Shown here piece after piece: positions 20,034 to 59,489 of a stretch of 64,000 bases of DNA. This DNA is from Zymoseptoria tritici IPO323 (Eukaryota > Ascomycota > Dothideomycetes > Mycosphaerellales > Mycosphaerellaceae), in assembly GCF_000219625.1 (NCBI RefSeq), contig NC_018205.1:434001-498000 (forward strand), written 5' to 3'. Position 1 is the stretch's first letter, and every line of letters begins with the position of its first letter. The translations under genes and the position numbers were made by a program. The notes beneath the pieces were generated by a model. It searched no databases and was not told the origin of the DNA. It worked only from the letters and a program-made list of their open reading frames with translations.

Positions 20034-21202
20034 GATAGTTCGCTTGGAGGTGGAAAGAGTTTCACAGATGAGAGCAAATATAAGCAGCGTCGGCACGTAC
20101 CAAGATCGAGAACGAGATCTTCATCAGCTGGATTTTGGAGAGGGAAACAGCTTGAGCGATAAGCAGATGATGCTAAAGAGCTGACGCCAAGCTTGTAGCC
20201 GCTTGTATCAGAACATGCAGTACACGTGTATGTCGCTGAGTGGCTACAAGATGCATATGTGTAAGTGCAGCATAAGATCAGTTTCGCATACGAGTCCTGC
20301 AGTGTATCGCGAAACAACCGAGAAGGACGTTCAGCAACTCAAAGCGTCGTGCTCTATCAGCACCAGCGACACTTCGGTAGCTTCGCCGTCGCCGTCTTTG
20401 TCACACCGTACGCCTGGCGCAAAGTGGCCAGCAAACAAAACGGGTTGCCAAGGATTGAACCGTTTGTTTACCAAAACCTAAACAAACATAGCCGTCCGAT
20501 CCATTCAAACAAACAATTAGGGTAGGAAGACTTGCAAATCACATGGCAAAGAGCCTTCGCTGTGCATTTTCGCCATTGTTATATCGTGATGCGTTCCATG
20601 TACACGACCGCATGCAGGCAGCCTCGGACATGAACCGTGACGCAATGCCCTGCAGGGTAGAAGGTGACATTGTGGCCCGCGAGCATCTGATGTCTAACAT
20701 CCCCATTACTCGATATAAGCGTTTGAGCGTGAACGTAATGTGTATTCCAGGAATTGTCTTAAGCTGCATTGACGATCCAGCAACAACAGCGAGGCTAAGT
20801 GGGCCCAAGCGACTCTTCTGCAAAAGTGCAAAACCCGTAAGTTGGGATAATAAAGGAGAATATGATACTCCTAAGACTGAATCGACTCTTAATCATGGAT
20901 CATACGTCTTGGAAGAGCCTGTTCACAAGTTGTCAGGTATGCGCTGCAATAATGGCATCAGCAGCAGGAGGCGAGTTGGAGTCGAACGAGCCGAAGCCGA
21001 AGCAGCAGGAATAAGCTGATCGCAGGAATTATCGCAGTCAACCTTGCGAGTACATGAGAGCGCGGCGCGTGTATGGGAGAGCTCGTAGCTCTAATGCTTG
21101 CGATTGGGCAACATCTGTCTTGTGAGGCAAGCTTGTGAAGCTGGCACTCCCATGCCCCAGCTCCACCTGATACAAAGCTAGTAGTTTGAGCTGCTTTAAT
21201 GT
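20034..21202. other. Upstream region of the deaminase gene; no supported gene
   Basis: The sequence is not RIP-mutated. A 158-codon frame at 20543-21019 (plus) has an overlapping minus-strand frame of similar length, and neither shows a family motif. The region ends exactly where the left TIR of element E1 begins. Confidence 0.3.
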
Positions 21203-21269
21203 ACGGCGGCTCAAATGGCCCACCCCGCCAAATTCGGGATTCTGAATTTTCCGAATTTCTCTGAAATCC
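21203..21269 (+). repeat. E1 left terminal inverted repeat
   Basis: Starts ACGGCGGC and continues TCAAATGGCCCAC, CCGCCAAA, then CCGAATTTCTCTGAAATCC. It pairs with 39711-39777 at roughly 80 percent identity by eye. Confidence 0.75.
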
Positions 21270-21839
21270 GAGAAGTCGAGCGTTTTGGTGAGCGACCATA
21301 CTACGAACGTGGTAAACATGGACTAGAAAGAAATTATATAAGTAGATACATCCTAAGTTGATATTCTTCGATTAAATCGTTCAAAACTACCTTAATTGCT
21401 CCGAACACTGCGCGAATAGAGTACGAACGGTGCAATTATGTATGTTTATATATAATTTTAACGGTTAAACAAACATAAGAAGCAGATATACACAGAACTC
21501 GCCGAATATACACTTATACGTCCTACAAAGTCTACAATAATTAACAACTAACACTACGAGCCCTCTGCGAGTACTACATAGCACCGGCATTACTAGGTTG
21601 TCGCCGTCGCCGTCGTTGTATAGTAGAAGGAACAACCTAAACCCTAACCCTATAATAGCGCCGAGCAACAACAACAACAATAACACGACCTTACGACTTC
21701 AGACAACTTAGAGGCATCAAGGGAGACAACGAGCGCGTTTGTATACTATTCGCTATATATTCGCACTCGCTAGGGCCTCTACTATCCTCGATTCGAACCC
21801 TTAGCGGTGTAGATTGCGGCGTAGAATGCTAGCGCGTCC

Positions 21840-22873
21840 TGCCTCTAAGTCCGACATATTAACAGTCTGTCTCTCGCGACCGGTAATACGCCTACCGAAC
21901 TACTGTAGCTACGTCTTATAGAGTGCTAACTATAGACGCACCTCGCAGTCCTTAAACTGCTCGAACTTGCTAATTAATATGCCTAGCTGCCTCTGCAGCA
22001 TAGCGACCTACTAGGCTAAAGTAGAGACGTCGACATTAGCCGGAGGTATTGGCGGAGGGATGTTAACATTAGCCGGAGGCTCGAAGGCGCGACAGCCCTT
22101 TAAGGAGTTAGCAAGAGCACGAGTGTACATCGAATAGGCGGCGAACGTACTAAGAAGCCCTTTACATAGTAGCGAGCGTACTACGCATCTTCGGTTAAGT
22201 AGACAGTGTAGTCGATATTAGCGTTAACACATCTGCGATTAATTAGCATCTAAAGACACAGAAGAGCTTAGATATATATACGGATCGTAGGGAGAGGGAG
22301 TAGGACGTCCTTAACCGGCTTCTATTAACAGCCTGCTATAGTTAATGTAGCGGAGGTTGGCACTAAACTGTTAGCTTCACGATTACATAGCGAGTAGCGG
22401 CGAACGTACAGCGCATTCTTCGCCTGCGTCTTGTCGCCGTCGACGTTAAGCGCCTTAGTTACCTAGGTCTGCTATTTCTAGAGCGAGTAATCCCACTAAA
22501 CGCTATTGCCGGACTGTTGTGGACGGTGTAGGCTAAGCACGATTAGCACACGATCGCTGCGCGACTGAGACGAAGCATCGTACGTATTAATCACCTGCTG
22601 GACACGCGCAGAGGTCGCTATGCTAGTAGAGGTAGTAGAGGTAGTAATATTGTTTAAGGAAGGATTTTGAAAGCCGAAGACGTAGCTTTTAAAGAGGGCA
22701 TAGCGATAAAGTAACAATAGTACGGGAATAGCCTTATTAAAGAAGCCGGTGACAATTAAGTAAGAACGACGGACAATACGAAGCGAAAAAAGGGGGCGAA
22801 GGTTAGCTAATTGCCTAAATTGAATAGTGATCTGGACGAGCACGTTCGTACTACGTTCGCGGAGTGATCGCAC
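21840..22873 (-). pseudogene. Relic of an E1-type coiled-coil gene
   Basis: On the minus strand near 22120 the frame reads SMYTRALANSLKGCRAFEPP, then a Pro-rich linker and a helix-forming stretch (VAMLQRQLGILISKFEQFKD). This parallels the protein at 37770-38552, whose corresponding part reads RSMFALTNVLKGCDIHSI followed by a coiled coil. Upstream coding-looking pieces in other frames (ALNVDGDKTQAKNALYVRR near 22410; an Arg/Ser-rich frame at 22496-22873) suggest frameshifts or introns. RIP stops are frequent. It may be a third, older copy of the coiled-coil gene or a domain duplication within E1. Function unknown. Confidence 0.4.
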
Positions 22874-23375
22874 TCGAGCAGGTCGTACGGATATCTCTAT
22901 CTCGACCAGTCTTCTATTCGACCCTCGAATTCGAACCCTCTAGGAGTCCTTACGGAGCAACCTAGCGTACGAACGCACCGCGAACGAACAGCGAACGCCC
23001 CTAACGCCTCTCCTATTTCCCTACTATATATGCGACTCCTGTTCTATTGCTGTTAGATAACATAGACCGCGAGACAGAGACTGTAGGCAACGAACGTCGA
23101 TTAGATTCGCTATATTAAGCATTGCTCCGCTCCCTTCGCACTCGCAGACGACAGAAGACTCGTAGACTACTTGCAGACGATAGAAGACTCGTAGACTACT
23201 CGTAGACGACAGAAGACTTGTAGACCACTCGCAGACGACAGCCGATCCCCTAAGCAAAGCTTATTGCGACTATTGCCTCCGCACTCGCAGACGACATGCA
23301 ATCCCTTAACTAAAGCTTATTGCTACTACTCCCTTCGAACGCCCCTCCGAACCTCCCTCCGAACCGCCCCTTCGA

Positions 23376-23759
23376 TTAACCGTCTCTCTTCGACGCAATC
23401 TAGTTTGCCTACGTCGATATGCTATCATCTAGCGGCAGGCTAATAGCTAGTGCTAACGCTACGTTAGCTAGCTGTAGCTGAAGTCCGAGCCGCGTGTAGT
23501 AACGCTCCAGCCTATTAATATCCTTCGTAATAGTGTAGTCGCGGTTCTCGCAGTATTAGTATTTAAGCTCTAGCTTAACCTCGTTTAGCGGATAATACTT
23601 GTCTCCGACGTTTAGTCGCTAGAACCAGGCTACCCCGACCCTGAAGTTAGTGCCTGGATTCTGAAGGTCGAAGAGGATGTATCCCTTAGTGCTGCCTTCG
23701 GCATTAAGGCGTTAGGTATAATAGAAGTCGGTGTAGCTGTTGCGGCCGAGATATAGCAT
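23376..23759 (-). pseudogene. Unknown small E1 gene, RIP-mutated
   Basis: ATG at 23759 starts a ~127-codon frame broken only by TAG/TAA at Trp/Gln-compatible positions. Readable segments are LYLGRNSYTDFYYT, LNAEGSTKGYILFDLQNPG, TNFRVGVAWF and LERYYTRLGLQLQLANVALA. It is rich in Tyr, Leu and Asn, with no membrane segment and no recognised motif. The lack of frameshifts and of TGA stops supports a real former gene. No homologue was found elsewhere in this window, so its link to transposition is only positional. Confidence 0.5.
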
Positions 23760-26501
23760 TTATAAATACTAACCGTTACCGCGACGGACGGAGGTGCTGC
23801 GGCGAGGATCGGCCGAGGGGACGAGGTAGGGCTGCGAAGGAGCCTATATGTTGGCGATAGTGTAAAGGGTGTTAATAATTTAGTAAAGGAGCTGTGTAAG
23901 GATTGGTTTGTTAGTTAAGATGTAAGAAGATTAGTATGTTAGATGCGGTGTAAGAGAAGAAGGAATAAAGGATAGGGAGGTTGGCCGGTATATATATAAG
24001 GGAAGGACAGGAGCACTATAGAATAACCGAGCATAGAATAACCGTAACTAACAAACATCAGCAGGCTATAATTCTACACACGAACGGCGCAGGATAACCT
24101 GTTAAATAACTAGAAAGCTGTATATAGTAGTTAGACGAACAGGCAAACATTAGTAGGCAACGGAGTATTGCAGAATAACCGGCGGCATAATTACATAGCC
24201 GTGCAGAATGACCTATAGTATAACTAGGTATCTGTGCCGAATAATCGGAGGGATAAGTACGGAGTAAGCCCTGTAATATAGACGAGTACGTTCGTAGAGC
24301 ATTCGCGAAGTAATCGCACTTAAGCAGTTACTAACTAAGCTCTAGAGTATAAAAGTTGAAAGTTAAAAGTCGATAGTTAGGAGCTAAAAATATTAAGAGC
24401 TAACTATCGCAGCATCCCCTCGAGCGCGAATGCACCGCGAACGCACTACGACTAGCCTCGTTAAAATCGCGACACCGTCTCAGCTACCGGAATTCGAGTG
24501 CCTACGTCCGACGCCCTCGTTCCGCTATATGTTTACTTATTAGGCCCTACCTCTACCTCTACCTCTACCCCTTCCTTCCCCTACGACACCTTAACCTCGC
24601 GCTGTTCCCTCCCCTTACTAGGCTTAGCTAGTCGTTCGCAATAAGAAGGACGGTAGAGGCGATGTTAACCTCGAACGCGCTACGTACGCGCGGTGTGGAA
24701 TTTTACCGCGGAAAGGCGGAGTCTATTGCTGTTACGGATGCTAAGGCGTCCCCTAAGTAGGCGCACTTCCCTAAGTAGGAGCATTACGGCGGAGTGGCGT
24801 AGGCGGTGTATATATACACTACGACGCTGCTGCGACGCTAACGGCGTCGCAGACGGCGGTGCTAGTCGGACGGTGCTAGTCGGCGCGCTAGTCGGCTCCG
24901 CTAGTCGGCTCCGCCATCGGCTTCCGCCCTCGGCGACGCCCTTAGCGTCCCCCTTAGCGTCCCCATCTATATATACCCCCCCTCCTAGTCAAATACCCCC
25001 CTCCTGGTCCGCTAGTGTGGAAGGGTAGCTATAACGACGAGGACAATAGCTAGGTGGAAGACGGACGTATTGGGCCGCTCCCTCCGCTCCTCCGCTCCTC
25101 CTTCCTCTAACGAACGACTAGCCTAGCCTAGCAGCGGGGGGATGCATTGCTAGGTTTAAGGTGTGGCAAAGAAGGAACGTTTGGAGGAGCAGATTAGCGG
25201 TAGAGTTCGCTCGCGCCGACGCAGTAGCGCGTTCGCGCCGCGTTCTATATATATACACGGCCGACGCTCGATATATATATACGGCCAACACCTCCGACTT
25301 GCTCGCCTAATTCGGTGCTTATTAGTCGCCTACATTAATTCGGAAAATAGATCGTGAGACCGCTAGTTACCGCCTTCGTAGTACCGAGAACTCTCCGTCC
25401 AAAGTATCAGACTTTAATAACACTCCTCGGCCATATAACAATAGCTACATCGACTACCGCCGCAGCATCGGACCTCGATGATACTCTATAGCTATACAAC
25501 AATAGCTATATCGACTACCGCTGCAGTATCGGACCTCGATAACACTCTACAGCTATATAACAATAGCTATATCGACTACCGCCGCAGCATTGGACCTCGA
25601 TAACACTCCATAGCTATACAACAATAGCTATATCGACTACCGCCGCAGCATCGGACCTCGATGAAACTCTACAGCTATACAATAATAGCTATATCGACGT
25701 GCGTAGCGATTCCGACGAGAGCGACGATAAGCTAATCCACTAGCAAGACTCTGTTAACATCCGACACTACACCGACCGGCCAAGCCTAGTAGGAGGGTAA
25801 CGTGCGGATAAGGCGTTGTAGGGGAAGGAAGGAGTAGAGGTAGAGTTAAGGAGTAGATTAGTGGACTAGTAGAGTTCGCTCGCGTAGACGCAGTAGCGCG
25901 TTCGCGCCGCGTTCGATATATATATACAGCCGACGCCTCCCTACTATTCTCTCTCGTCCGTCTAAAGCATCAGACTTCGATAACACCGCTTCCGGCGACG
26001 CTAGCGCTTCTGCTAACGGCGACGATGCTGCTCCTACCTCGGCTACCCTTCCTTCTACGGACGACTAGCCCTACCTAGTAGGGGCAGCGGAGCAGCGTAA
26101 AAGTAGGGTGTTGCAGAGGAAGGAAGGGGTGGAGATAGAGGAGGAGTAAATCGGTGGAGTTCGCTCGCGCGGACGTAGCGGCGCGTTCGTAGCGCGTTCG
26201 ATATTTATACTACTAACGCCGCCTTAAGCTCTCTCCCTCTTATAAAGAAGCTACTACCGCAGCAACGCACTAACTAGCTCTAGCTCTAGCTCCGGCTCTA
26301 GCCTTAGCTCTCCAGCGGCGGTGGCGGTAGACTAGCTAATGCTATAGCGGTTAACGAGGACGATGATATAGAGGAAGGGCGAGGGGGGTGGTGTGTTAAC
26401 GGTAAAGCTAGAGAGAGATAGAAGCTAGAATGATTTATATGTTTCTAACTACTATATAGGAGATATCGGCACGAACCTACTACAAACCTACCGCGATCGA
26501 C
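23760..26501. other. Non-coding, RIP-mutated interior of E1 with repeats
   Basis: No coherent frame. A module containing GAGTTCGCTCGCG, then GCGTTCGCGCCGCGTTC and a TATATATA run occurs three times (about 25203-25258, 25867-25925 and 26155-26213). The 61-bp tandem array is listed separately. Many copies of GCGAACG/CGTTCGC are scattered here and through E1. Confidence 0.5.
25427..25697 (+). repeat. 61-bp tandem repeat, about 4.4 copies
   Basis: ATAGCTACAT/ATAGCTATAT followed by CGACTACCGC recurs with a 61-bp period at about 25441, 25502, 25563, 25624 and 25685. Copies differ mostly by C/T and G/A changes, as RIP would leave. Confidence 0.85.
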
Positions 26502-27059
26502 CTATAATAACTTATTTCGAAGCTCTATTGTCAACGGATTACTAGGCGGCTTGGTCGGCTTCTTCGCACTAGCGTTCTTTGCACTAGCGTTCTTCGCACT
26601 AGTCTTCTTCGCACCAGTCTTCTTAACACGCTGCTTCTTGCGTTGTGGTTGTTGCGGCGACTCTGGCGGTAGTGCAGCGTCCTCGTTATCCCTATTAAGA
26701 CTACTAACAGTCGGCTCCGTCGGAGTTAGCGTTGGCGTTGGTCTCTGCGTATATTCATTTATCGATAGACCTTTGCCTATAAGACCGCCCTCGCCTATAA
26801 GGTTAAAGGCAAAGTCGTAGTTATCGACCGGGCTATTGTTATAGCTAGTCGTAGTGCGCTCGTCGATGCGTTCGTCGGCAGGGCCTGCGCCCTAGTCGAC
26901 TCTATCGCCTATATTCGAACTCTTTTTAGAGGCGCCGCAGCCGGCCTACCTCTTATCGCTATCGGCTAAATCGGAGTTGTCTAAAAGCTTACTACGTGCA
27001 ACGCCCTAACTAGCTGGATCTAGCTTATTACGTTTACCCTCTGTCGAGAACACTCGGAC

Positions 27060-27388
27060 TGTGAGGACACCCTCACGATGACGCCCCCTACCTGTCCCAA
27101 CCTGGACTATCCTGGCACTACAGATTACCGGTGCTATCTTATCTGGCCTAGACTAGGACATCCTGTAGAGGGACGAACCTTACGGGCGCACGATAGCCCC
27201 CGAGCGGACGTCGGACTGCGACCGGTGCCGGGTCTGGGCAGAGGGACGCATTTGGCAACACGAAGGGCGGGTACATAGCCTCGGGGGACGCTCTTATCCA
27301 TTCCCTTCCTTATCGAATCGACTCGTTACATTCTACAACTATTTGTTTTCGGTGCAAGCCTACACTCCCTCTTAAGGTGCTTCTAACA
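27060..27388 (+). repeat. Chromovirus 5' LTR
   Basis: 329 bp, starting TGTGAGGACACC and ending CTTCTAACA. About a dozen differences from the 3' LTR were seen, nearly all C/T or G/A transitions. Confidence 0.92.
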
Positions 27389-27519
27389 TTCGATTCGATT
27401 AAAAACAACCGTACAACTATACCGAAAACTACCGACATAGCTCTAAAGGTTACCTGTCGTTAGGACGATTCCCTTCCTAACACCTCCGCCCGACAGTAGG
27501 CAAGCGCTTCCTCTACGGA

Positions 27520-28640
27520 GCTATCGGCTACGCCTGCTAGTTAACTGTAGGACGTTAACCTTCTCAACCAGCCTAGCTCGGGAGAGACCGTAGAAGAAAG
27601 GGCCACCCGGGAGCACGACAACGAAGTCGCCCGCGCTACCTTCGAGTTCTTAACCCTTTAGCAGAAGATTAAGGAACTCTGTGCCGAACTAGACCATCCT
27701 ACGCTAGAAGGGAACCTAAGGACGGCTACCCTCCGCTACCTTTTCTCCGAACCTAACTAGCACACTAAAACGAGGGATAACCTCCCCAAGTTAAAGGAGC
27801 TACTAGTCTTCGAGGGCAAGTCGCGTACGAGCTACGACGACTAGGTCCGAGCCCTCGAAAGAGCCTTTAGACGATACGAAGGATTCGCCGAACGCGAAGA
27901 CCGCAAGGTCGACTTTGCTGCCGACTATATAGGAAAGCTCTAGCAAGACTACTAGGAACGCTACGTCGACAGCCTTAACGACTAGTCTAAGCCAACCTAG
28001 TCTATAATAAAGGAGGTTATGCTTAACTCGATAGGCACAGAGACCGAACGGCGCGAGAAGGCCTACGAGAAGCTGAAAAAGGTTACCCTAGGTGACCGCA
28101 CGCCGGAAGAACTCCTCGAGGAGCTAAAGACACTCTAGAAGGAGCTCGATAAAAGGGACGATAGCAAGAAGATCCTTAGGTTCTACAGCGCCCTTCTATA
28201 GACCCTTCGCAACCGCCTCTCGAACTACCCTACCGCCCTACTAAACCTAGTAGACGCCGAGGAGAGGGCCAAAAAGGCCTACCGTGCCAACGAGGGCTCC
28301 AAATAGGAGGCTCGTAAGAGGCAGGCTGCTAAAAGGTCCGCTAAGTAGGCGAAGAAGCGCCCTAGCGACGGCTCTGCTGCTCCGGATGGCAAGAAGGCAA
28401 GGACTAGCGATAGCGAACAGAACCCGAAGGCCCCCTCTAAGGCTACGTACTACGGATGCTAACAGGTCGGGTATATCCGCCGCGACTGCACTAACTAGCA
28501 CCTGTAGAAGGATTCGGGGAAAGAGACGCCCCCTAAGTAGATGCTGTTGCTTAGGTGGGCTAAGTCCTCTACAATGAGGATTAGCGGCGCTCGGCTAAGC
28601 TAGGAAAGCGCCGCGCCTAGCAAGGGCGCCTAATTAGCGT
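27520..28640 (+). pseudogene. Chromovirus gag
   Basis: The capsid-like frame reads LVFEGKSRTSYDD, then VRALERAFRRYEGFAERED and a basic C-terminal region (KKRPSDGSAAPDGKKA). At the end is a CCHC zinc knuckle whose first Cys and the His have become Tyr (YYGC..VGYIRRDC), just what CpA-to-TpA changes would do. Several Trp/Gln codons are TAG. Gag is in reading frame 2 while protease-pol is in frame 1, consistent with -1 frameshifting or a separately initiated pol; the exact slip site was not identified. No function is possible now. Confidence 0.75.
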
Positions 28641-31600
28641 CGAGTTGACGCTAAACGGCCTAGGGGAGTCCAGAAAGGTCCGGGGCCTAATTGATAGCGG
28701 CGCCCAAGACAACTTCTGCGACTCTATGCTAGCAAAGGAAATAGGGTGGACGGTTTCCGAGCTATCTACCTAGACAAAGTACCTAACTCTAAATAGCCAG
28801 AGCCTGTAGGTCTTTAGAGAAACGAGAAACTCCTACAAGGCTATAGACACCTCTAGCAAGGCGCAGGGGTGCGTGGACACGTTTAAGGTGGGACGTATCC
28901 ACAGTTTCGAAGTCGTGCTCGGCATGCCCTAGCTCGAGAAGTACAACCCGGGTGTTAACTTCGCTCTAAAGGAGGTCTTCTAGAGGCAGAAACCTCGAAA
29001 GCGTTAAGCAATGGCGGTAGTGTCCCTGGACAGGTTCTACCGGGAGTGTCTCGGTAAAGTCGAGGCAGCTCTTTACGTTATGTCGATCTAAGAGGTCGAG
29101 GATAGATTCGAACTAGACCAGAATAGCGTCCTAACGGCGTATTCTAACTTCTCCGACGTCTTTTCGGAGGAGTTGGCTAGCGAGTTAGCACCGTATAGAC
29201 CGCACGATCTCAGGATCGACCTAGTTAAAGGAGCAAGGGTCCTATTTAGCCCTATGTACGCTCTGTCGGAGGCAGAGATAGATGCGATGCGCAAGCAGCT
29301 CCCTAAACATCTAAAAAGTGGCTTTATTCGCCGCTCGACGTCCTCGGCGGGCGCGCCAATCCTCTTCGTAAGGAAAAAGGACAACACACTCCGCCTCTAT
29401 GTCGACTACCGCGGCCTAAATGCAGTTACGGTAAAGAATAGGGGGGGTCTTCCCTTGATTTCCGAGTTAATAGACTAGCTGGCTAGCGCCAGGTACTTTA
29501 CGAAGATAGACCTCCGCTACGCGTACTACCGTGTCCGTATCCGGGAAGGCGACGAGTAGAAGACAGCCTTCCGGACCAGATACGGCCATTTCGAATACAC
29601 CGTAATGCCCTTTGGGCTCTATAATGCCCCCGCGGTGTTCCAAAACTTCATTAACAGCGTGTTAGTAGGGCTAATCGACGTGTTCTGCGTCGTTTACCTC
29701 GACGACATCCTTATATACTCCAAAACGGTAGAGGAGCACGAGGGCTACGTCCGGGAGGTGCTAGAGCGCCTCCGGAAACACAAGTTGTACGCTAACCTGT
29801 CTAAGTGCGATTTCCACAAGGACCGCGTCGACTACCTCGGGTACGTTATTACACGTGATAGGCTAGAGATCGACCCAGAACGGGTCAGATCGGTCCAGGA
29901 GTGGCCACTTCCCTGGTTAATACATAACATTAGGGTCTTTATCGGCTTCGCGAACTACTATAGGCGCTTTATTAAGGGCTTCTTACGCCTCGCTGCGGCA
30001 CTTAACCGCTACACGGAGGGGAAAAAGGCAGTAAACTAACGTAAGAAGGAACGAGCATACTTAGAGCTCGACGAGCAAGCTGTGCTTTCCTTCGACGAGT
30101 TGCGGAAAAGGTTCTCGGAAGCTCCTATCCTGCGCCATTTTAACCTAGAACTGCCCTGTAGGGTAGAAACCGACGCCTTAGGCGAGGCGATCTCGGGCAT
30201 CCTGAGCTAACTATACGAAGACTACGGCAAGACGTAGTAGTTCCCTGTATTATACTTCTTACGAAAGATGATCGCGGCAGAACGGAACTACGTTACGGAA
30301 GACGCTAAGCTGTTAGTAGTCGTGGACTCCTTTAAGTACTTTAGACAATACCTGGAGGGGGCTCGACACTAGGTCGAACTACTAACGGATTATGCAAACC
30401 TGCAAACTCTTATAACGACTAAGACCTTGTCTAGGCGGTAGGTTAGATAGGCCGAGTAGTTATCGCAGATCGACTTTAGGACTATTTACAGACCCGGCAA
30501 GGCTAATAGGGCGGCGGATGTACTAAGTAGAAGGCCCGACCTTACGGACAAGGACTACTCTGGACGGTAGGCTACAGACGAAGAGTCGTCTATAAGCTTG
30601 CGGCTCCTCTAGACGGCATTCCAACCGCATCTAGACTATAATAGACTAGTAAGGCACGTAGGGGTAGTAGAGGACGCCCCAGACCTAAAAACGCGCCTGA
30701 AATGCGCCCTCTTAAAAGATCCGACCTTTAACAGGATTAACGAGGAGAAGGACTAAGCGGAACCTGCTTTCTAGGCAGATCGATAGACTAACGAGGATAG
30801 AGTCGCGTATATAGACGGCAAGGCCTACGTACCTAAAGGAAGCATAAGACTCCAACTGCTTTAGGAATACTACGACGATCCTATAGCAGGGCACTTCGGC
30901 TTCTCTCGAACGCTCGAACTTCTACAAAGGAGTTTCTACTGGCCCAAAATGAGGAAATACGTTAAGGACTACATACGAACGTGTTAAGCGTGTAGTAGGG
31001 CAAAGCCACGGCGGCACAAACCTTACGGATTGCTGTACGCAGAGCTACTATCGCTCACACTATAGGAGGATGTGACGCTAGACTTCATAACGGACCTGCT
31101 ACCTAGCATGCTTCTAGGCCAGGCTTACAACTTAATCCTGGTAATCGTAGACAGATGCACCAAAATGGTCTATTATGCGCTATGTAAGAAGACGATTACC
31201 GCAGCAGAGCTCGTAGAGGTGTTTATAAGGGAAGTCGTACGACTCTATAGCGCACCGGCTACGATTACGTCGGATCGAGGACCTATCCTAACCTTAAAAT
31301 TCTAGAGCACGTTCTGTTTCTGCCTTAGCATACGCCGGAAGCTGAGTATAGCGTTCTACCCTTAAATAGACGGGCAAATAGAGCGCCAAAACCAGACGCT
31401 AGAGCAGTATCTTCGTACATACTACAACTATAAACAGGACAACTAGGCCTCCCTACTCTCTACTACGGAATTCTCGTATAATAACAGCGTACACTCCGCA
31501 ATAGGGGTCACGCCATTCTAGGCGTACACGACACGGGACCCTCGGCGGTGCTACTAGCCTAGACTACGCCAGAATGGACGAGAAGCCCCGTTCGCTGTAC

Positions 31601-32166
31601 AACTTGCCGACCGCGTTATCTCCAACTAGAAGAAACTGCGGGTCAGACTAGCTAAAACAAAGAAGCAAATGGCTAAGTGGGCGAACGAGCATAGGAAGGA
31701 CATCTCCTTTAACGTCGGAGACGAAGTCTACCTTAACATACGCAACATTAGGTTATTAAGACCTTCGGCGAAGCTCGATTACAAATACATTGGGCCTTAT
31801 AAGGTAAAAGCGGTCATTAACCGCGTCGCATATACGCTCGATCTACCAGACTTACTAAAGATCTACCTAACCTTCCATGTTTCTCTGCTAGAACTATCTA
31901 TCCCGGACTAGTTTGGTCGCAAATAGGACAGGATGATGCGATACGACGCAGGAGAGGACAATAAATACGAAGTCGAGGCTATTCTGGCTAAACGTGTAGA
32001 CAAACTAAACAATCGGGAGTACCTTATTAAGTAGAAAGACTACGACTAGTCCGAGAACTCCTGGGAAGTAGCAGTTAACATTAGCCCGGCAGCAATGCAG
32101 GCCTACCGGCGTAGAATAGGCTAGAAAGGACCGACTGCGCGCGGTAAATTCTAGAAAAAACGCTAA
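28641..32166 (+). pseudogene. Chromovirus pol: protease, RT, RNase H, integrase, chromodomain
   Basis: A single frame carries in order: protease (LIDSGAQDNFCD, 28687); reverse transcriptase ([47 protein letters not shown] and the catalytic VVYLDDILIYS near 29690); RNase H (VETDALGEAISGIL near 30165); integrase with a Zn finger (HFGFSRTLELL, CSRAK) and core (LDFITDLL, VDRCTKM, ITSDRGPI near 31270); then a chromodomain (YEVEAILAKRVDKLNNREYL, 31968-32100). Chromodomains direct integration to histone H3K9-methylated chromatin in related elements. Many TAG codons replace Trp or Gln, with no frameshift seen. The frame ends at TAA 32164. Confidence 0.9.
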
Positions 32167-32393
32167 CCCCCTTGGTTAATTTTTCAATCCTTTTTTGCTT
32201 TATAACATTGGACTTTAACATTTTTAATAATTCTAGGGATTTCATTTGGGTGTCAAGGCTTTCCATTCTGGACTATTCTGGTCCACGTCAAGCTATTCTG
32301 CGCTATTATAACTCAAAAGGGCCCTATCACTCTGCGTAATAGCGTTATCTGTTATACCCTGCATACTGCTAGAGCTAACTGGACCAAACCGGC

Positions 32394-33295
32394 TTAATTA
32401 TCGCTATCCTCGTCCGAAGCGTCCTCTCTACGCTCCTAAGCGGCCGTGGTGCTTACTAAAGCCTTCAACGCCTCCCTGTTAGTCTTTCCCGTACCCCTAG
32501 CGTACGAATTAAACCTCTCTAGGGCCTTGCTATTGCGATGCAAGGCAGTCTTGTACTTGTTAAGCTTGTCTGTTAACAACTAGACCGTAATAGCGCCCTT
32601 TAGATTAATTAGGCGGCTTCTCTTAGCCCTCGGGGTCCCGGCAGCAGCCTGCTCCTACATCCTAGCGTTAGCATAGCCCAAAATGCGCTAGAACGGTACA
32701 CTTACGGCCTTCTCTATATAAGTAGCGGCCGACCTGTCCCGCTTCTTGACCTTTTAACCCGTCGTGTCCTACTCGCGGGTACCCTGGTGCAAAGTAAGAC
32801 CCTCCGGGCCGCGAACGCTGTTTCCTAGCTCCCTAAGGCGCCAACTGTTAGCATACTAGCCTAAAATAAGCCAGAAAGGCACATACAACTTAATCGAACT
32901 AGCAAACAGGAGCACCTTGCTCCTTAACTTCTTCCTGTTGTCCGCGTTTACCACTGGATTAGCGTACTCTGCTTAAATCTGGGCATTAATAGTGTCCTAC
33001 TCGCCCTTACGGGCCGGAGGGAGCTATTTAGGGTCAGCCTAGATCTAGAAGACTCCAGAACAGTCTAGAAATATCCTACCTAGAAGCAATCGGCATTTCT
33101 GTCGTCTAGATAGCCGGCGCATTTAGCAGTAATGCCCTTAATAGGTTTCTCTGGCCCTAACTGGCATAGTTTAGTTAAGTCTTTGTTCAGCTTAACGTCT
33201 TTGATGCAATTAAAGCACGGATTATAGTTAAAAGCCCCGTTGCGGACCTTTTTGGCGTAATCGTTGCGCACGAGGGCCGCGGCGGCGGAAGACAT
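32394..33295 (-). pseudogene. Antisense accessory gene of the chromovirus
   Basis: ATG at 33295 opens a frame starting MSSAAAALVRNDYAKKV. Residues ~25-70 are Cys-rich (PCFNCIKD, KLCQLG, AKCAGYL, NADCF), like a zinc-binding module. After TTC-TAG a 41-nt segment with GT...AG ends fits an intron (about 33044-33085), and the frame then runs to TAA at 32394: 861 coding nt, 286 residues. The C-terminal part is Lys/Arg-rich (KLNKYKTALHRNSKALERFN), ending in an acidic tail (EDASDEDSDN). Stops inside are TAG/TAA at Trp/Gln positions, so the frame was under selection before RIP. It is transcribed against pol. No family was recognised. A regulatory or nucleic-acid-binding role is a guess from Cys and basic content. 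Confidence 0.65.
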
Positions 33296-33510
33296 AGTGT
33301 GTCTGCGCCAATGTTAGCCTTGCTAGACCCAAACTGGACTATACTAGCACCACCCCAGATTACTTACTTTTTGGTAGTTAGTAAAGAAGAGAGAAAGTTT
33401 GGAAGAAGAATTAAATTAATATGGCGACGCTACGGACCCGCAAATCCTTCCAGATTAGGACATCTGGCAGCTAACAGCTTGTGAATTTTCTACCGCAACT
33501 AAGGTTAGTT

Positions 33511-33531
33511 GCAGAGAGGGGAGGGGGGCAA
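33511..33531 (+). other. Polypurine tract of the chromovirus
   Basis: AGAGAGGGGAGGGGGGCAA abuts the 3' LTR, the expected plus-strand primer site. Confidence 0.75.
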
Positions 33532-33860
33532 TGTAAGGACACCCTCACGATAACGCCCCCTACCTGTCCCAACCTGGACCATCCTGGCACTACAGATTAC
33601 CGGTGCCATCTTATCTGGCCTAGACTAGGACATCCTGTAGAGGGACGAACCTTACGGGCGCACGATAGCCCCCGAGCGGACGTCGGACTGCGACCGGTGC
33701 TAGGTCTAGGCGGAGGGACGCATTTGGCAACACGAAGGGCGGGTACATAGCCTCGGGGGACGCTCTTGTCCATTCCCTTCCTTATCGAATCGACTCGTTA
33801 CATTCTACAACCATTTGTTTTCGGTGCAAGCCTACACTCCCTCTCGAGGTGCTTCTAACA
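33532..33860 (+). repeat. Chromovirus 3' LTR
   Basis: 329 bp, starting TGTAAGGACACC. It is immediately preceded by a polypurine tract and followed by the CGGAC target duplication. Confidence 0.92.
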
Positions 33861-34960
33861 CGGACGGCGCGCTTCTCTCTTCTCTAGATTTCTACCATCT
33901 TCGCCTAGTGATCCGTAACTTAGCCGGCGATCTCTATAATAAGGGCAGGATTAACACCCTCTCCCTCGTTATACTCCCTATTCTCCGCCCTCGCCTTGTC
34001 TCGAGCTGCTATCTCCCTACGAACGGCTATCATTTGCAGATTCTTTTTGACTTTAGCATTAACCTCTATATGCGTATACTTCTTCATCCTGTCTATATGC
34101 ATATGTAAGAGGATAGTAATAGTATAGACTTACTTCTACAGTTTGCCTTTGCTATATATCGCAACATCGAACGGCTATAGGTTAGTAGCCGCATCGCTAG
34201 TTAAAATCGCTTGCTTTAATATATCCGCGAGGCCGTCGTCGATAGCAATGCCGGTAACGGCGCTATATTCGAAGAAGCCCTCTCGAAGACTTAGTAGCCG
34301 AATGTCGCTCCGTGTCGTGCGAGAAAGTAGGAATCCGAGGAAGTCTGCTAGATTTATATAATCGTCTAGCATTTGTTAGGTAAAACTGTTAGCCCTATTA
34401 TATACGCATTCGAGTAGAGTATGCATCTTAGTTAACGACTTCTTAGATACATAGTGCCAAAGCTCGTAGACGATAACGCGGACGTAGAAGAACTCGGGCA
34501 GGACACTCCTCGGCACTAGAGCCTTCCCTCTGCGACTACCTAGCGGCTTGCGTAGTAACGGCGATAGTAATGCTAGAGTTCCTAGGTCGTCGGAAGCTCT
34601 TAGTTACCGTGCTAAGATCGCTACGGCGCCGGCACTGCTAGCCTGCATAGGGAACCCGGCGAAACTGTATTATTGCGGTCGTAGTTAGGTTCTAAAGGTG
34701 CTCGTCTGTCTATACCCCTCGGATTCGTTTGGCAAAGATGTAAAGGAGGTGTAGCTGCTACTCGCAGCGGCGTTCGGAGGTAGTAGTAGGGAACGTCTTA
34801 GATTCGGCCGGTTGCAATCCTCGCAGAAGTCGTCCTCGTCGAGTTGCTACTATGTATACGGCCGTCCGACAACGGTGCAATTAGTGCCCTATAGGCGGCG
34901 TTCTTTACGTACTGCTATAGTATAAGAGACCGTAGCAAATATGGAGGTCGTAAGGCAAAG

Positions 34961-35550
34961 GAGTTAGCAAGGGGATAAGGAATATGTGCAGAATAAGAGC
35001 ATATAACATCCCTCGGTACGAGTCTAGAGGCGGTAAGACTCCTTATGCCTAGGGGAGGGTCTCGAACGCTTAACGAATAGCTGCGAACGTAGGGTCTGCG
35101 CGGGACACGAGGGGATTGCCGGCTCTGCTATTAGTTCCGGTCGCCCTATAAACCTTAATAACAAACTGTTATAGCCTAATTAGGCGGGGCGAACGCTTGT
35201 CGAATAGCCGCGAATGACTACGATCGCCGGGCTATATAAGGAGACTGCCTCTCTGCCGCCTAGAGTCGCCAAACTCGATGCCGACTGCAGCTATTACACA
35301 TTGCCTTCGATTAAACCGAATCTACCGGAGCCTAACAGCTTAGTTAGCAAACACATCCGGCGAGTCGATCGAGGATCGTAGGATTAGATCGATGGGGGAC
35401 CCCTGCCCCGCTCGCGGCTACTCGACTAGCGTTCGCGGTTACGTATTCCCAATCGAATCTACTATCGATCCCTTATAGACTCCTTGTTAGACTCCTTAGT
35501 CCGGTTCTTTGTATTAGGCCCGTTTCTTTTCTATAGCGGTAGCAAAGCGC
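34961..35550. other. Divergent intergenic region of E1
   Basis: RIP-mutated, non-coding DNA between the accessory gene (leftward) and the transposase (rightward), so a shared promoter region by position. No motif was recognised. Confidence 0.4.
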
Positions 35551-37695
35551 TTACCTTGCTTCTATCGTACTTAACACCTCCCTTAACGTCTCTTCTGCAC
35601 ACGATCTAGGTTGCTACGCTCGCGCTATAGACTACTAGGCCCTATTAGCAAGAGTAGCAGAGGTAGAAGACTTCCGCGAATAGATTATAGTACGCATCGC
35701 CGACGGCTCCTTATAGGCAACGGTTCGTAGAGATCTGTTTAGTCTACATAACATCGACATGCCTAAGCGGATATTCTAAAGGAAGCTGAAGGAGTAGGGA
35801 GTTAAGCATCTATCTAAACGTCTAGCGGTAAAGGATATAGTTATGCTACGATATTAGATCGCTTATACGTTTTACGTTCTTCGGTATAGCGACGAACATA
35901 CCTCTTATCTCCTAGAAGACAATAGATTCGTTATTAGGCCGAAACGTGTAAAGAAGATCTGTAAGAAGATAGGCCTATTAAAGAAGGTTGCCGCGGTTAA
36001 CCGCGAAGCTGCTAAAGAGGTAATTCGTACGGTCCTTCGCGAGGAGCTAGATAATGGCGATATCGAGGGTTTTGGTCGACGACTACTATACGAGCATATA
36101 AGGAACAAATGGACTATCGTCGGCCAGAAGAGAGTGTATAACATCCTAAGGGAGCTAAATCTAGACGCCGTTTACTAGCGAACATATACTGCAAAGCAGC
36201 ACCGTAGAGCTGTAATCCTTCTAGGACCGAATTATGCTTAGTCGATAGACGCCTACTACAAGATAGAGTACTTCGGCTTCTAGATATATAGCTGCACAGA
36301 TATATTTGCCTGTTACATTACTTAGATCTACATTAGGATTACTAGAAGGACCTAGGTGTCGGTGTAGAAGCAGTACGTTAAAACGGCTAACGAGGGGAAG
36401 GTAATGTATGCGATTAGTTCTCGAATAAAGCGCCGTGGTTAGCGAGCTAACAACTTCGAGCCCTTATATGCTCCAAAGCGATTGCGGTAGCGAGACTTGT
36501 TATATAGCCGATGCTTACCTCTCCCTCCGGCGGCAACTCTACGACGGACCCGAGGTAGGTAGACGTCTACCGAGCAGACCGCGAGTGAGCAACGAACTAA
36601 CACTAGAGCCCTAGCCGCTTACCTTCGATAAGTACTTCCGGTACGGCACTAGCAAGATAAACTAACGCATCGAGAGCTAGTAGCGTTAGCAGACCGCTAG
36701 TACTGCTCGTTAGCGTTAGTTCTTTATAGAGCTACACCTGCAAGGGCTTTACTTAAAGAAGAACAAATACGACCGGATTGCTATACTGTTCGTATATATG
36801 CTAATAATAAGGTCTACCGTCCTTGACTTTGTGCACTTCTGGAACACTTATCACATCCGGTTAGATAAGAAACGTCTATAGGTCGTTAGTAGTATGCCGC
36901 ATTCTATATACTTTAACCTAAGGTTGTTTAATACCGAGCAGATAGGCGTTTACGTTCTAGGAGAACTTCTAGAGCTAATAAAGAGGGACCTTAAAGGTGC
37001 GTTCGTAGTGCGTTCGTACGATGTTCGCTTATTGTTCTACCTCGCCGTTTGCTCTACATCCGCTATTAACAACGAGAACCTCCCTAAGCTAGACAGACTA
37101 GGAGCAAGGAGCGGGCCTAAGGGTACTCGGCGAGGACGTTCGTTGCTCGTTCGTACCCTATTCGCACCTCCTGCTTATTTACTGTCCTAGCTTATACTCC
37201 GAGCCTAACACTAACAATATTAACATAGGTTTTGCGCTTAATAAGCACCTTCTAGTAGCGACAATAGAGTAGTGCGAGTAGGTTTTATAAGGGCAGGGCT
37301 TTGCAGTGCCGGTTTCTAGCAAAGCTACAGACCGAGAGAAGTTTCGCATCTATCCGTAGGCATACATAACTCTCCGGAGTACTATTCGTAAGCTGTTTCG
37401 CGTGCATAGTAACGATGCCTTAGCCGAATGCCTAAAGCTATATGCTTCCGAGCACTAGAGGCCTGATCTAAATAACGACTTTATATATCGAGAGGCCAAT
37501 AAGCGAGTGTTCGACGGCCTAGAGCTAGAAGGTTACGAGGAGCCTACCGGCGTTAACACGATAGAGCAAGGCGATAAGGAGGAGTTTGATAATAATATGC
37601 TAGAGCAGTTTCTAGGCCCTCGAGATAATGGCTTTGTTACAGACTTAATAGCAGCGCTGAATCGATATCGCCAGCAGCGCGGCGAGCATGTTTAA
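35551..37695 (+). pseudogene. E1 integrase-type (rve/DDE) transposase
   Basis: A reading frame with RIP stops, probably with one or two introns around 36390-36600. N-terminal HTH-like part: DIEGFGRRLLYEHI, then VGQKRVYNILREL. Catalytic core: GPNYAWSIDAYYKIEYFGFW (first Asp in SIDAY), YSCTDIFACYITWIYI (second Asp), and near 36660 FRYGTSKINQRIES followed by Trp-Trp (third acidic residue in RIES). Downstream is TVLDFVHFWNTYHIR. This is the pattern of eukaryotic integrase-core proteins with WxxDGYDKL and NQRIExxW motifs. The closest named group I can suggest is IS3EU; this is not certain. The C-terminus is acidic (VNTIEQGDKEEFDNN), ending at TAA 37693. Homologous along its length to 59490-62330. 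Confidence 0.72.
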
Positions 37696-37769
37696 AGGCC
37701 CTGTATATATATATAATACGGACTAAGGAGTCTAACAATGCATTATTTAGAGAGTCTTAATGTACGAAT

Positions 37770-38552
37770 TCACAGCGAACGAGGCACGAATACACGTAAA
37801 GGCTTCTCTTATTGCTGCTACTGCTATCTACTACTGCTACTGCTGTCTACTACTGCTGTCGCTATCTACTACTGCTGCTTCTGCTTCTCTAGCCGCTCCT
37901 CCTCTATGTGTTTAATAGGGTTAGTCACGCCCTTATACAGCGGTCCGCGAATAAGTAGAACAGGCTCTTTGCCGGAGGCGGCGAGCTTACTTAGGTCTGT
38001 TTCTTAAGGTAGTTAATCCGGATAGTTCTAGCTAAAGACTAACGTAAAGGTCCAGCGCTTAAGATCGTCCGCTACGCAGGCAGTCTACAACAGCCATTTC
38101 TTATACAGCGTAAGCGTCTCGCGCGTCTCCTTCTTAAACGCCGTAAGGGATTTGAATACCTTCTGCATGTTCGAATCGCCCTTATTAGCCATCCTCTCGA
38201 CGGCTTCGAGTTTAGACTAGAGCGTAGTAGCAGTCTGCTCGGCGGCAGTAGCACGCTTATCTAATGCCGCTATGCAGCCGTCGACTGCCGCTATACAGTC
38301 TTCGTATGCCGCTATGCAGACTTCGGCTGCCGCTATGCGGTCTTCGAGGGAGGGAGGGGTAGGAGCGGTTATCGAGTGGATATCGCAGCCCTTAAGGACG
38401 TTAGTAAGTGCGAACATACTACGATCAGACTGCGAACGACTTACGGTCTTGCCGCTGAAGCGGCAATAGGCGCAAGCCTCTTTCCTCGCGTCCCTCTAGA
38501 CGTAGTAGGCGTAACCGAGGTTTCTACCGCGAGTATAGCTAAGAGTAAACAT
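37770..38552 (-). pseudogene. E1 coiled-coil protein gene
   Basis: ATG 38552 to TGA 37770, 260 codons in one frame with TAG/TAA at Trp/Gln sites. The N-terminus reads MFTLSYTRGRNLGYAYYV, then a Cys pair (ACAYC) and FALTNVLKGCDIHSI. A heptad-like region with short Ala-rich repeats follows (IAAAEVCIAAYEDCIAAVDG), then EETLTLYKK-type helices and a Gln/Ser-rich tail from a CTG/CTA microsatellite (37814-37890). It ends 74 bp from the end of the transposase, tail to tail. The gene at ~58920-59398 in E2 has a matching N-terminus (YSRPSALGAIYYV) and the same convergent position. It may be an oligomerising transposition partner; that is inference. Confidence 0.6.
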
Positions 38553-39710
38553 TAGCGATTATTCAGCGAACGAGCAGCGAACGGGACAGCAAGACTTATA
38601 TAGTGCAGGCTGGCGAAGCATTGATGCCTTTATTCGTCTCGGCTATACGTCTAGCGGAATTATGCTTCCTAAGTTTCGCACTACGTAAGTTAGCTTTAAC
38701 ACATAAACAGCAGCAAGATGGACATACAGTGCAGCCGACGCAGCCTTATTTACAAGCTCCTCCTAGACAGCATGCTGCGAACGTAACAAGCTAGGGTAAG
38801 CGGCTCTATCGTAGGTCTCGCTCGCGGTGTAGAGAAGATCGTTCTATTTAAGGGGGGAGTAGCTATAGTAGTACTCTACGAGTTGAGGGCAGCGGAGTCT
38901 ACGAGCGATTAGTACACAAACAAGTAGCGAACGGCCTAACAACTTACCCTCGGAGCTTGGCCGGTAGAGGAGAAGGCGGCACGCGTAGTAGTAATAAGGG
39001 CGGAGGTAGTAGTAGAGGACTAAAATTAACGATTAGCACCACGAATGTATAGCGAACGGCAGGAGAAGAACCTACGCATCGCTTATCTCAGAATCGACAG
39101 CAGTAAGAAGACTAAAAGGGTGTTAGCACTAGCATGTGTCTAAAGTTGTAAAGGAGAAGGAAGGGATCGCTTACGAGTCTGCGGCCGATATGGTAGTAGT
39201 AACGACGGCGGTGATAAGGAGTTCGGCGGCGGTGATAGTAAGGTCGGAGACGGCGGTCGTAATAGTAATATAACAAGATTAAATAAGTGCTATTAAGCAG
39301 CGTAATCGTGCGGGCAGCGCGTGCGTAACAGTAGTAGTAGTGATTAAAGAGACCGATTCGAGAGAAGTTTTTAAAGGACGTAAGGTTAAAATGTTAACAA
39401 TAACAAGCAAACGGTGCATTCAGCCCGCGATTTACTCGCGAGCACCGCACGAGCGCACTGCGAGTAAGAGCTAACAATAGGAATGAAGCTGTTATATTGT
39501 TAGGGTCGTAATATGGTTAAAGGGCGTCATTCACTTATAATGCGTGCGCTGGCCGAGCTAGCAACACTATTCCTACCGAGTTTTTATAGTTTTCTGTCGG
39601 TAGGATTTTGAACATTTAATTGAGACTGAGATGGACACACTCGCACCTATTTGTGGTGCGTTCGCGTCCGTGATAATCTTTAAAGGACGCAGTGAAGTCC
39701 TGAAGTGAGG
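38553..39710. other. Right end of E1, non-coding
   Basis: RIP-mutated DNA with GGCGGTGATAG-type and TAGTAGTAG-type short repeats; no frame with coding character. Confidence 0.4.
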
Positions 39711-39777
39711 ATTTGAAGAAATTCGGCTAATTCCGAAATTTCCAGATTTTGGCGGTGTGGGCCATTTGAAGCTCCGT
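39711..39777 (-). repeat. E1 right terminal inverted repeat
   Basis: Reverse complement starts ACGGAGCT, then TCAAATGGCCCAC, ACCGCCAAAA and CCGAATTTCTTCAAATCC, matching the left TIR along its length. Confidence 0.75.
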
Positions 39778-40054
39778 CAATTTGAATGCGCTAGAAACCA
39801 ATTTGCGCACAGATGCCTCATAAAATCATTTCACTCTCACTATAGTAGCTTGACCATCGTGCTAATGAAGCAGTGAAGAATGTCCGTAGAGGCGGCGTTA
39901 AACTAGCGGGTACTAGTTGATGATTGCGCATTTGAGGCCACGACAAATCTAATTCAAGGCCTCATGTATCGTTGTCTCTAACATCTGCGACTTCAGAAGC
40001 ATCTTGCAAGAGCAGACCACATTAAGAAAATACCTCCGACTTCTCTCGTTTGAT

Positions 40055-40907
40055 TGTTTGTTTGTTTGTTTGTTTTTGTTTGTTTGTTCCATTTACGTCC
40101 TTTTGGAGTCCAAGACTATGTAGGACGGCCTTGCGAACAAGGCAGTAGATCTATTTACAATCAAATTCTTTTGGTATTCTTTAACCTTAGGGGAAACCCC
40201 GTGCCTAAGGCAGGACCTGCAAGCAGAATCTGCCGAAGGACTTTAAAACAGCGCAAGACAAAGGAAATCAAACGAGTGTCGTTGTCTGCAGCCGGGGCTG
40301 CAGAATTTTCGCGCCAAGCTTTTTGCAGAATTTTCAGCGGATCCTTCCGCTTCGTACGCACGCTGCAAATTCGAAAAAAAGGAGCGTAGAATGCAGTGCA
40401 AAAGCAGTGCAGAATGTAGTGCAAAAGCAGTGCAAAAGCAGCTGTCTAACTCGCTGCCCCCTCTTATCCTTAATATGCCTTTGTAGAACTGTATACCGCT
40501 TCTAAACGTATACAGCTACGTAGGTTAATCGCAGAGTTGTAGATTCCACCGAGTTCTAGCTCTTTGAAGTGCATGTATGCTTCCTTTAAGGGCGACGAAG
40601 TCTCTAGAGAAGGGACATGCGATTTCGGTTCGGATTTCGAGGAGGTGCGCGTATAGGGCAGAGTGGACTACTTCTTCTTCTTCTTCTTCTCGTTCGTAGC
40701 GTAGAGGGCTATTCGTTCGAATCGTGCCGTTGTTCTGTTGTAGCTTGTATTTCGATAGGAGGCGTACTTCTAGGTCGTATTGTTGTTGTTGTAAGGGAAG
40801 AGGGATTAACGGCCTCTCCAATCCTCCGGAGGAAACTTAGCTCTACAACGACGGTATCGTCGCAGGTTCGTAGCCGGCACCACGTACAGGTGTTCCTCGT
40901 CGCCGAC
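40055..40907 (-). mobile_element. SINE-like retroposon A (853 bp)
   Basis: Read on the minus strand, it starts at 40907 and ends in a CAAA-type tail at 40055. A perfect 15-bp target duplication CTTCTCTCGTTTGAT flanks it (40040-40054, 40908-40922). Its last ~190 bp match the 3' end of the LINE at 3756-9360, but the body is unrelated to the LINE ORFs. It contains a purine run (GAAGAAG) and short frames such as GDEEHLYVVPATNL. No clear pol III A/B boxes were seen. It is not RIP-mutated. A homologue is at 60391-61187. Probably a non-autonomous element mobilised by the LINE machinery. Confidence 0.8.
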
Positions 40908-48400: not shown

Positions 48401-48730
48401 AAAAGTAAGCGAGTATATATCCCGGCTATACTAGTCGAATCGCTACCTCGTATAATCTAGACGTTTATATACGAAGATATATACTCGTATCGGTCTACTA
48501 TTGGTATCGTTTAGTATATAGTAGAGGTAGAAGGTATCCTTCGCTAGGTAATATATTATTTCTATAAATAGGTTCCGCTATAGCTTCTATATAGCTATAA
48601 TATCGAAGTCTACTACTTTCTCGTCGCGTAGTAGGGTTACTATTATAGTATCCCGTAACTTCTAAACGTTATACTATAGTATACTTAGGGTTAGGCGTTC
48701 CTTTATTAGTCGCTCTCTATATCGATTTCT
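45500..48730 (-). pseudogene. L2 ORF2: endonuclease, reverse transcriptase, RNase H
   Basis: Endonuclease: FDIIAI, then RPIRVYIFVYKRLDY, LTIFNIYNLPKGVED and ENIVVGDFNLYYY (near 48250). Reverse transcriptase: FRYSTTVVLRKPRKDNYTIP, VYRLIALLNIIGKVIDTVLA (47009-47242), and the catalytic loop near 46640, where L3 reads RYIDDAAILAWG but L2 has the second Asp changed. RNase H: YIYTDGSGISSYI near 45775. This domain order is that of the Tad1 clade. TAG at Trp/Gln is very frequent. The element family is distinct from the LINE at 3756-9360, which lacks a recognisable RNase H. Confidence 0.82.
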
Positions 48731-48739
48731 ATATATTAA

Positions 48740-50388: not shown

Positions 50389-50539
50389 AGCTTCGTATAA
50401 CCTTCAAAGGCGGGTATAGCGCACTATAGTACAACTAAATTCCAATAAGTACGGTACTCGCTATGTTAATGTTTTCCGGCGGTCGGACGTGGTGGTCTCG
50501 GTCGAATGGAGAGAGAGTGTAAGTGTGTCACGTGAGTAC

Positions 50540-50881
50540 GTGTAACCGCCCTTCGCCGCTCGAACTCTCCCCTCCCGCCCTATCCGCGGTCTGTCACTAC
50601 GACAGCGCCATTGGACGGACTGTTGCGACTCGCGACGCCTGCGGGGGAGAACCGTGTAACCGCCCTTCGCCGCTCGAACTCTCCCCTCCCGCCCTATCCG
50701 CGGTCTGTCACTGCGACAGCGCCATTGGACGGACTGTTGCGACTCGCGACGCCTGCGGGGGAGAACCGTGTAACCGCCCTTCGCCGCTCGAACTCTCCCC
50801 TCCCGCCCTATCCGCGGTCTGTCACTGCGACAGCGCCATTGGACGGACTGTTGCGACTCGCGACGCCTGCGGGGGAGAACC
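50540..50881 (+). repeat. Three 114-bp tandem repeats upstream of the SSU1-like gene
   Basis: Units start at 50540, 50654 and 50768 (GTGTAACCGCCCTTCGCC). They are almost identical; the first has CACTACGAC where the others have CACTGCGAC. Each contains the near-palindrome CTGTCACTGCGACAG and GCCATTGGAC, an inverted CCAAT box. The array ends 128 bp before the start codon. Because 114 is divisible by three, long open frames appear on both strands; these are artefacts. Confidence 0.9.
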
Positions 50882-59398: not shown

Positions 59399-59489
59399 GT
59401 TCTTATAGTATTTAAATAAGTTCGCGGTAGCGTTTATAGTATTAATCGTCGTATTCTACCTTATTCTATACTTAATCTCCTTACTCGAA

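Follow-up and report, generated by a model that had tools for sequence, protein, structure and literature searches.

The DNA analysed here, referred to below as the window, is a 64,000-nucleotide stretch of Zymoseptoria tritici IPO323 (positions 434001-498000 of contig C14, NC_018205.1; we take this contig to be accessory chromosome 14). The genome searched comprised 39,686,251 bp in 21 contigs. An element designated E1, bounded by terminal inverted repeats (TIRs), occupies 18,577 bp of the window, or 11,776 bp once its nested long terminal repeat (LTR) retrotransposon is removed by coordinates. These lengths bear out an earlier sequence-only reading, in which inverted repeats enclosed an 18.6-kb block of 11.8 kb without the nested element. 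The principal features are as follows (window coordinates, as throughout unless another contig is named):

21202..39778, no strand assigned: E1, whole element including the nested LTR retrotransposon, delimited by TIRs, composition edges and the copy on contig C21
21202..21269, plus strand: left TIR, tip TACGGCGGCTCAAATGGCCCAC; predicted specificity box TGGCC at 21216-21220
39709..39778, minus strand: right TIR, minus-strand tip GACGGAGCTTCAAATGGCCCAC; predicted box at 39760-39764
27060..33860, no strand assigned: nested LTR retrotransposon, a later insertion into E1 (LTRs 27060-27388 and 33532-33860)
35639..36405, plus strand: predicted transposase exon 1, with helix-turn-helix region and first catalytic Asp; start codon not identified
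36461..36996, plus strand: predicted transposase exon 2, with second Asp and Glu; 3' border read by eye
37229..37695, plus strand: predicted transposase exon 3, running to a stop codon; its 5' border was read by eye

The TIRs are imperfect and 67 bp long (21203-21269 and 39709-39777; E=1.2e-8 in a self-comparison of the window). Judged by related copies, the outermost base of E1 sits one position beyond each repeat (T at 21202, C at 39778), and the edges are placed to within one base. Depletion of CpA/TpG begins and ends at the same edges when followed in 500-base steps, and the earlier claim that the TIRs and the switch in composition mark identical boundaries holds at that resolution. The LTRs of the nested element are 96.4% identical, differing by 12 transitions and no transversions, and CGGAC is present on both of its flanks.

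The genome search for further copies of the TIR that the sequence-only reading had proposed showed that the tips recur across the genome. A second long copy lies on contig C21 (212832-225402). It is colinear with E1 and has no LTR element; small insertions of its own are present, and 11,660 of the 11,776 bp of E1 (99%) are represented in it. The copy contains the left end, 99% of the interior and the right TIR except for about the last 11 bases. Its outermost right bases have been replaced by other sequence, and a pattern search for the lost tip gave 29 hits against 32 control hits, none of them on C21. An alignment of 5,305 bases in the right part shows 433 transitions between E1 and C21, of which 311 are in CpA/TpG context, and 17 transversions; in four other stretches transversions amount to 0.3-1.2%. 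Since transitions are far in excess of transversions, the two copies must recently have been almost identical and have since been altered by repeat-induced point mutation (RIP). E1 and C21 likely represent one unit that transposed before it was mutated.

Some points weigh against movement as a unit. The long copies known are two, from one genome, and the movement of E1 is inferred from its copies. The flanks of E1 do not match (TAATG to the left, AATTT to the right), which leaves it with no target duplication; with the right tip of C21 lost as well, none is seen at a long copy. The missing duplication at E1, together with the fact that tips of its type are common on short elements, would suit an arrangement in which each TIR is part of a small element of its own and the sequence between them is unrelated. 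This outcome was looked for and not found: the C21 copy holds the interior in identical order with the left end and nearly the whole right TIR, and we consider such an arrangement extremely improbable. A segmental duplication or an ectopic recombination could likewise have produced the two copies, and would agree with the missing duplication at E1 and the lost tip of C21. However, the similarity of E1 and C21 ends at the TIR ends, with no match between the kilobase adjoining E1 on either side and 834 and 1,098 bp of C21 flank, and target duplications do flank short elements with the same tips. An origin of this kind is unlikely in our judgement.

The short relatives were defined by their tips. 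At up to three mismatches the tip pattern gave 60 genome hits against 8 in the control (24 of the 60 with 0-1 mismatch), and another tip pattern gave 19 against 6. Tips are called first type when they resemble those of E1 (TGGCC-type) and second type when they are GTTAG-type. Seventeen two-ended pairs were obtained: E1 itself, 11 others of the first type (all of them short elements, one with a large insertion) and five of the second. Outside these pairs stand the C21 copy with its lost right tip, one-ended fragments on C6, C5 (944 kb) and C18, and four single tips (L086-L089). All 17 pairs have one TA end (15 TACG, 2 TAGG) and one GACG end. Perfect 5-bp target duplications flank 12 of the 17, and 14 have a duplication with at most one mismatch, compared with a mean of 0.72 perfect duplications for shuffled partners; 6-bp duplications at the same boundary occur in none. 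The pairs without a duplication are E1 and those on C1 and C5 (1.76 Mb), a point against the proposed mode of insertion. Because E1, C21 and the one-ended fragments give no duplication, the 5-bp rule is drawn from short or nested relatives. A short first-type element at C2:3572545-3586809 (L084, L085) has an intact 5-bp duplication and a ~13.8-kb insertion in its tip region; it had been considered as a third long copy and was rejected as such. Miniature inverted-repeat transposable element families with 5-6-bp duplications have been described in Mycosphaerella graminicola (PMC4522978) and may include the short elements found here, a likeness by description only; the available passages of that paper name no autonomous partner.

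The sequence-only reading had placed an integrase-type (DDE) transposase inside E1, and this proved sound. The three predicted exons form 590 codons in frame, interrupted by 24 internal TAG or TAA codons and no TGA. The product matches the Pfam family rva_4 (E=1e-7, above the family cut-off); at E<=1 its Pfam matches are rva_4 and HTH_21 alone. It is 28% identical to the Z. tritici protein P0001 (E=6e-41), which is probably the integrase of the transposon Styx and matches rva_4, Clr5 and helix-turn-helix families, and the catalytic D, D and E residues of the two proteins align. No Pfam match at E<=1 to the zinc-binding integrase N-terminus (HHCC) was detected in P0001 or in E1, where the N-terminus is mutated and its start unidentified. 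Codon periodicity was seen in exon 1, and an intron position is common to E1, C6 and C12. On the other side of the balance, the start of the gene and its intron borders are predicted, and a protein search with the mutated E1 transposase gave no hits. A relative, P0005, yielded a confident model with an integrase-like core (predicted local distance difference test score, pLDDT, 89.6); P0001 modelled alone was poor (pLDDT 39.5) and was not used, and a sequence search of the PDB with P0001 found no match. Within the genome, the E1 transposase has 82 matching stretches at E<=1e-5, a count that takes exons separately and includes E1 and C21.

We considered whether E1 might be a Ginger or Maverick/Polinton element and not a relative of IS3EU. 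Ginger2 makes duplications of 4 or 5 bp, according to the passages available of PMC10045372, and many rva_4 relatives of E1 also match the general integrase family PF00665. The matches of E1 itself are confined to rva_4 and HTH_21, no zinc-binding N-terminus was seen in either E1 or P0001, and the E1 transposase groups among fungal rva_4 proteins. An assignment to either group is very unlikely. The HHCC domain upstream of the integrase core that characterizes Ginger1 was not found in E1. Seven chosen E1 frames gave no Pfam match to the Maverick/Polinton genes (DNA polymerase B, packaging ATPase, protease, capsid).

We are confident, on the whole of this evidence, that E1 is a RIP-mutated 11.8-kb TIR DNA transposon, likely moved as a unit by its own predicted rva_4-type DDE transposase, an enzyme related to that of IS3EU and Styx and probably on a separate branch. 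In the mechanism that we propose, the transposase would contact the outermost 30 nt of each TIR through its helix-turn-helix region, with a 5-bp box (TGGCC in E1, GTTAG in the second type) probably setting specificity. Cleavage at the TACGG and GACGG ends, and their joining to the target with a 5-bp stagger, would fall to the RNase H-like DDE core. The same enzyme would move in trans the miniature elements of ~0.25-0.5 kb that have the same tips. Both long copies were then mutated by the host through RIP.

Integrase-type elements with several genes are known from fungi. In IS3EU, complete families invariably terminate in TA..TA, and their duplications are usually 6 bp (Kojima, 2023; PMC10045372, in part). 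Those of Pucciniales are bounded by TAYGG..CCRTA and make 6-bp duplications; genes for alpha-kinase and TET/JBP are described in such elements (Kojima, 2025; PMC12730594, in part). Styx is described as a 7,927-bp IS3EU element with four reading frames, and the search settings of that paper specify a 36-bp TIR and 6-bp duplications (PMC10853768, in part), and IS3EU is given as the most abundant DNA transposon of Colletotrichum lupini (PMC11645255, in part). The sequence-only reading could not name a multi-gene integrase-type element in an ascomycete. A large element with TIRs and an integrase-type transposase, acting as one unit, does stand, given the C21 copy; its kind, however, has been published as IS3EU, including Styx, and multi-gene elements of this type were already known in ascomycetes (passages of PMC10853768 and PMC12730594).

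By its transposase E1 agrees with the IS3EU lineage: the match to rva_4, the likeness to P0001 and the aligned catalytic triad all point that way, if indirectly, and no HHCC domain was detected before the core. Its group departs from IS3EU in having GACG at the second end in place of TA..TA termini, and in the lack of the usual 6-bp duplication. On these sequence characters we call E1 IS3EU-like and do not count it as a member. No report of 5-bp duplications for IS3EU was met in the literature searched, which included the available passages of PMC10045372 and PMC12730594.

Like E1, Styx is a TIR DNA transposon with an rva_4 transposase and more than one reading frame, it resides in the same host genus, and a minus-strand Cys/coiled-coil frame is possibly related in the two (E=0.004). 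It differs in its length of 7,927 bp and in the 36-bp TIR and 6-bp duplications of the published search settings; E1 measures 11.8 kb, its TIRs are 67 bp long with different tips, and the duplications of its relatives are 5 bp. A tblastx comparison of E1 with a Styx-like copy on contig C16 recovered a piece of the transposase only, and the tips differ; E1 and Styx did not prove to be the same element. The TET/JBP-bearing IS3EU elements of Pucciniales and Tuber are also multi-gene and integrase-type, and the left end of E1 (TACGG) fits their TAYGG. However, the Pucciniales families end in CCRTA and make 6-bp duplications, whereas E1 ends in CCGTC, and no Pfam match to the TET/JBP or alpha-kinase genes of the TET-positive elements was found in the seven E1 frames scanned (PMC12730594, in part). 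IS3EU and GingerRoot elements share with E1 a DDE transposase with a helix-turn-helix N-terminus and no detected zinc-binding N-terminal domain; in their termini (always TA..TA) and duplications (usually 6 bp) IS3EU elements differ from it (PMC10045372, in part).

Both ends of the E1 body were also found behind tips of the second type. The two modules concerned are:

21233..26552, no strand assigned: left body module, also behind GTTAG tips on C6 (to 26552) and C5 (to 24599)
38961..39740, no strand assigned: right body module, also behind a second-type tip on C18

Transversions between E1 and the second-type copies are few in the body: 43 of 3,172 bases (1.36%) for the left body on C6 (21233-24490), 2.36, 0.54 and 1.50% for C5, and 5 of 777 (0.64%) for the right body on C18. 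The values for C21 and C18 (1.80%), C21 and C6 (1.30%) and C6 and C5 (0.78%) are similar, and all second-type body comparisons fall within 0.5-2.4%. The transposases of E1 and C6 differ by 153 transversions in 889 bases (17%), and the outer 30 nt by 7 (C6) and 8 (C18) of 30 (Fisher p=2e-7 and 2e-9, respectively, compared with the body). Divergence thus affects the tips and the transposase and spares the body. When the box was left open, the tip pattern gave 29 exact matches, 18 with T(G/A)GCC and 11 with GTTAG or GTCAG; one mismatch added 12 rows, six of these types and six chance-like, and the reversed control gave 6.

From these comparisons, enzyme and ends appear to switch together between the two types. 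One body would then be served by two recognition systems, TGGCC tips with the E1 transposase and GTTAG tips with the C6 transposase, swapped together, within a group that would also form a distinct IS3EU-like branch with unequal ends and 5-bp duplications. We hold this tentatively, at a little under an even chance. It is weakened by the occurrence of a second-type tip together with a transposase on C6 only, and by the C6 right end, which was not found within 12.5 kb of sequence. Alternatively, C6 may record no exchange at all, its divergent transposase having come from another element inserted beside the shared left module; the missing right end and the abrupt stop of the transposase match at position 2212129 of C6 agree with this. 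Order and orientation on C6 are nevertheless those of E1, the gap between module and transposase is 1.7 kb compared with 2.3 kb in E1 without the LTR element, and tips have changed on an unchanged body, at the left on C6 and C5 and at the right on C18. Such an insertion is a serious possibility, somewhat short of even. On C1 and C5, elements with second-type tips, 4.1 and 2.8 kb long respectively, have nothing internal in common with E1.

The remaining features of E1 are candidate reading frames and one conserved block:

37872..38558, minus strand: likely second gene, in convergent orientation to the transposase; a coiled coil follows a short region with Cys
34100..34945, minus strand: candidate reading frame, found in the two E1 copies only; no Pfam match
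22499..22939, minus strand: candidate reading frame, 147 stop-free codons common to both copies (a non-discriminating test)
26505..26891, minus strand: candidate reading frame; antisense frame open as well
23216..24022, no strand assigned: conserved block, probably not coding, also on C12 (71%) and C4 (85%)

The frame at 37872-38558 (229 codons) is also kept in C21. It resembles a Cys/coiled-coil frame that occupies the corresponding place in the Styx-like copy on C16 (E=0.004 in that single comparison), a 24-residue piece on C12 (E=0.032) and a coiled-coil piece of E2, a second relic in the window (E=0.002). Because coiled coils inflate such scores we grade it as likely a second gene, one that may have some role in the element. 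The sequence-only reading counted at least three genes besides the transposase; support from outside E1, itself weak, was obtained for this frame only. The shared-stop gene test did not discriminate, as antisense frames scored alike, and among the seven chosen frames scanned the others gave no Pfam match and no convincing homolog. A 37-residue tblastx piece of frame 34100-34945 on C6 was not recovered by tblastn, and the frame stays a candidate; frames in the left half of E1 are candidates at most. The block at 23216-24022 was rejected as a gene, its transversions ignoring codon position and its sequence showing no codon periodicity. A 61-bp tandem repeat lies in the left half of E1 (25403-25707), with a different copy arrangement on C6. 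A short repeat adjoins E1 (40062-40755), with another copy at 60391-61030 and a partial one at 9147-9361. Matches to pieces of this repeat also lie at points of insertion in the E1 body as copied on C21 and C5.

Other relics and repeats were observed. E2 (58200-62200) is a second integrase-type relic, with a transposase on the minus strand from ~62168 to 59685, a plus-strand coiled-coil frame near 59192-59416 and the short repeat inserted at 60391-61030; its ends were not found. The Styx-like copy at C16:541700-547129 (L093, L094, L095) has long open frames, few transposase stops and a degraded left tip, and its closest named protein is from Z. tritici 1A5 (82% identity when stops are taken as Q). 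An inverted repeat at 47653-49928 and 52685-54960 (2.3 kb, 93% identical) retains nearly no CpA/TpG, which indicates very strong RIP, and between its arms three ~115-bp tandem copies (50539-50881) are 99% identical and of unmutated sequence.

Relics of integrase-type transposases in this genome extend well past Styx. A feature that had no name can now be described as a group of fungal integrase-type transposons for which exact ends, duplication length and short partners are defined. The novelty lies in a variant whose ends are unequal and whose duplications are 5 bp and, perhaps, in a matched exchange of enzyme and ends. If the two do switch together, natural pairs whose main differences lie in tips and transposase would reveal the bases that the enzyme reads, and would illustrate how transposons could evade cross-mobilisation through the exchange of recognition modules.

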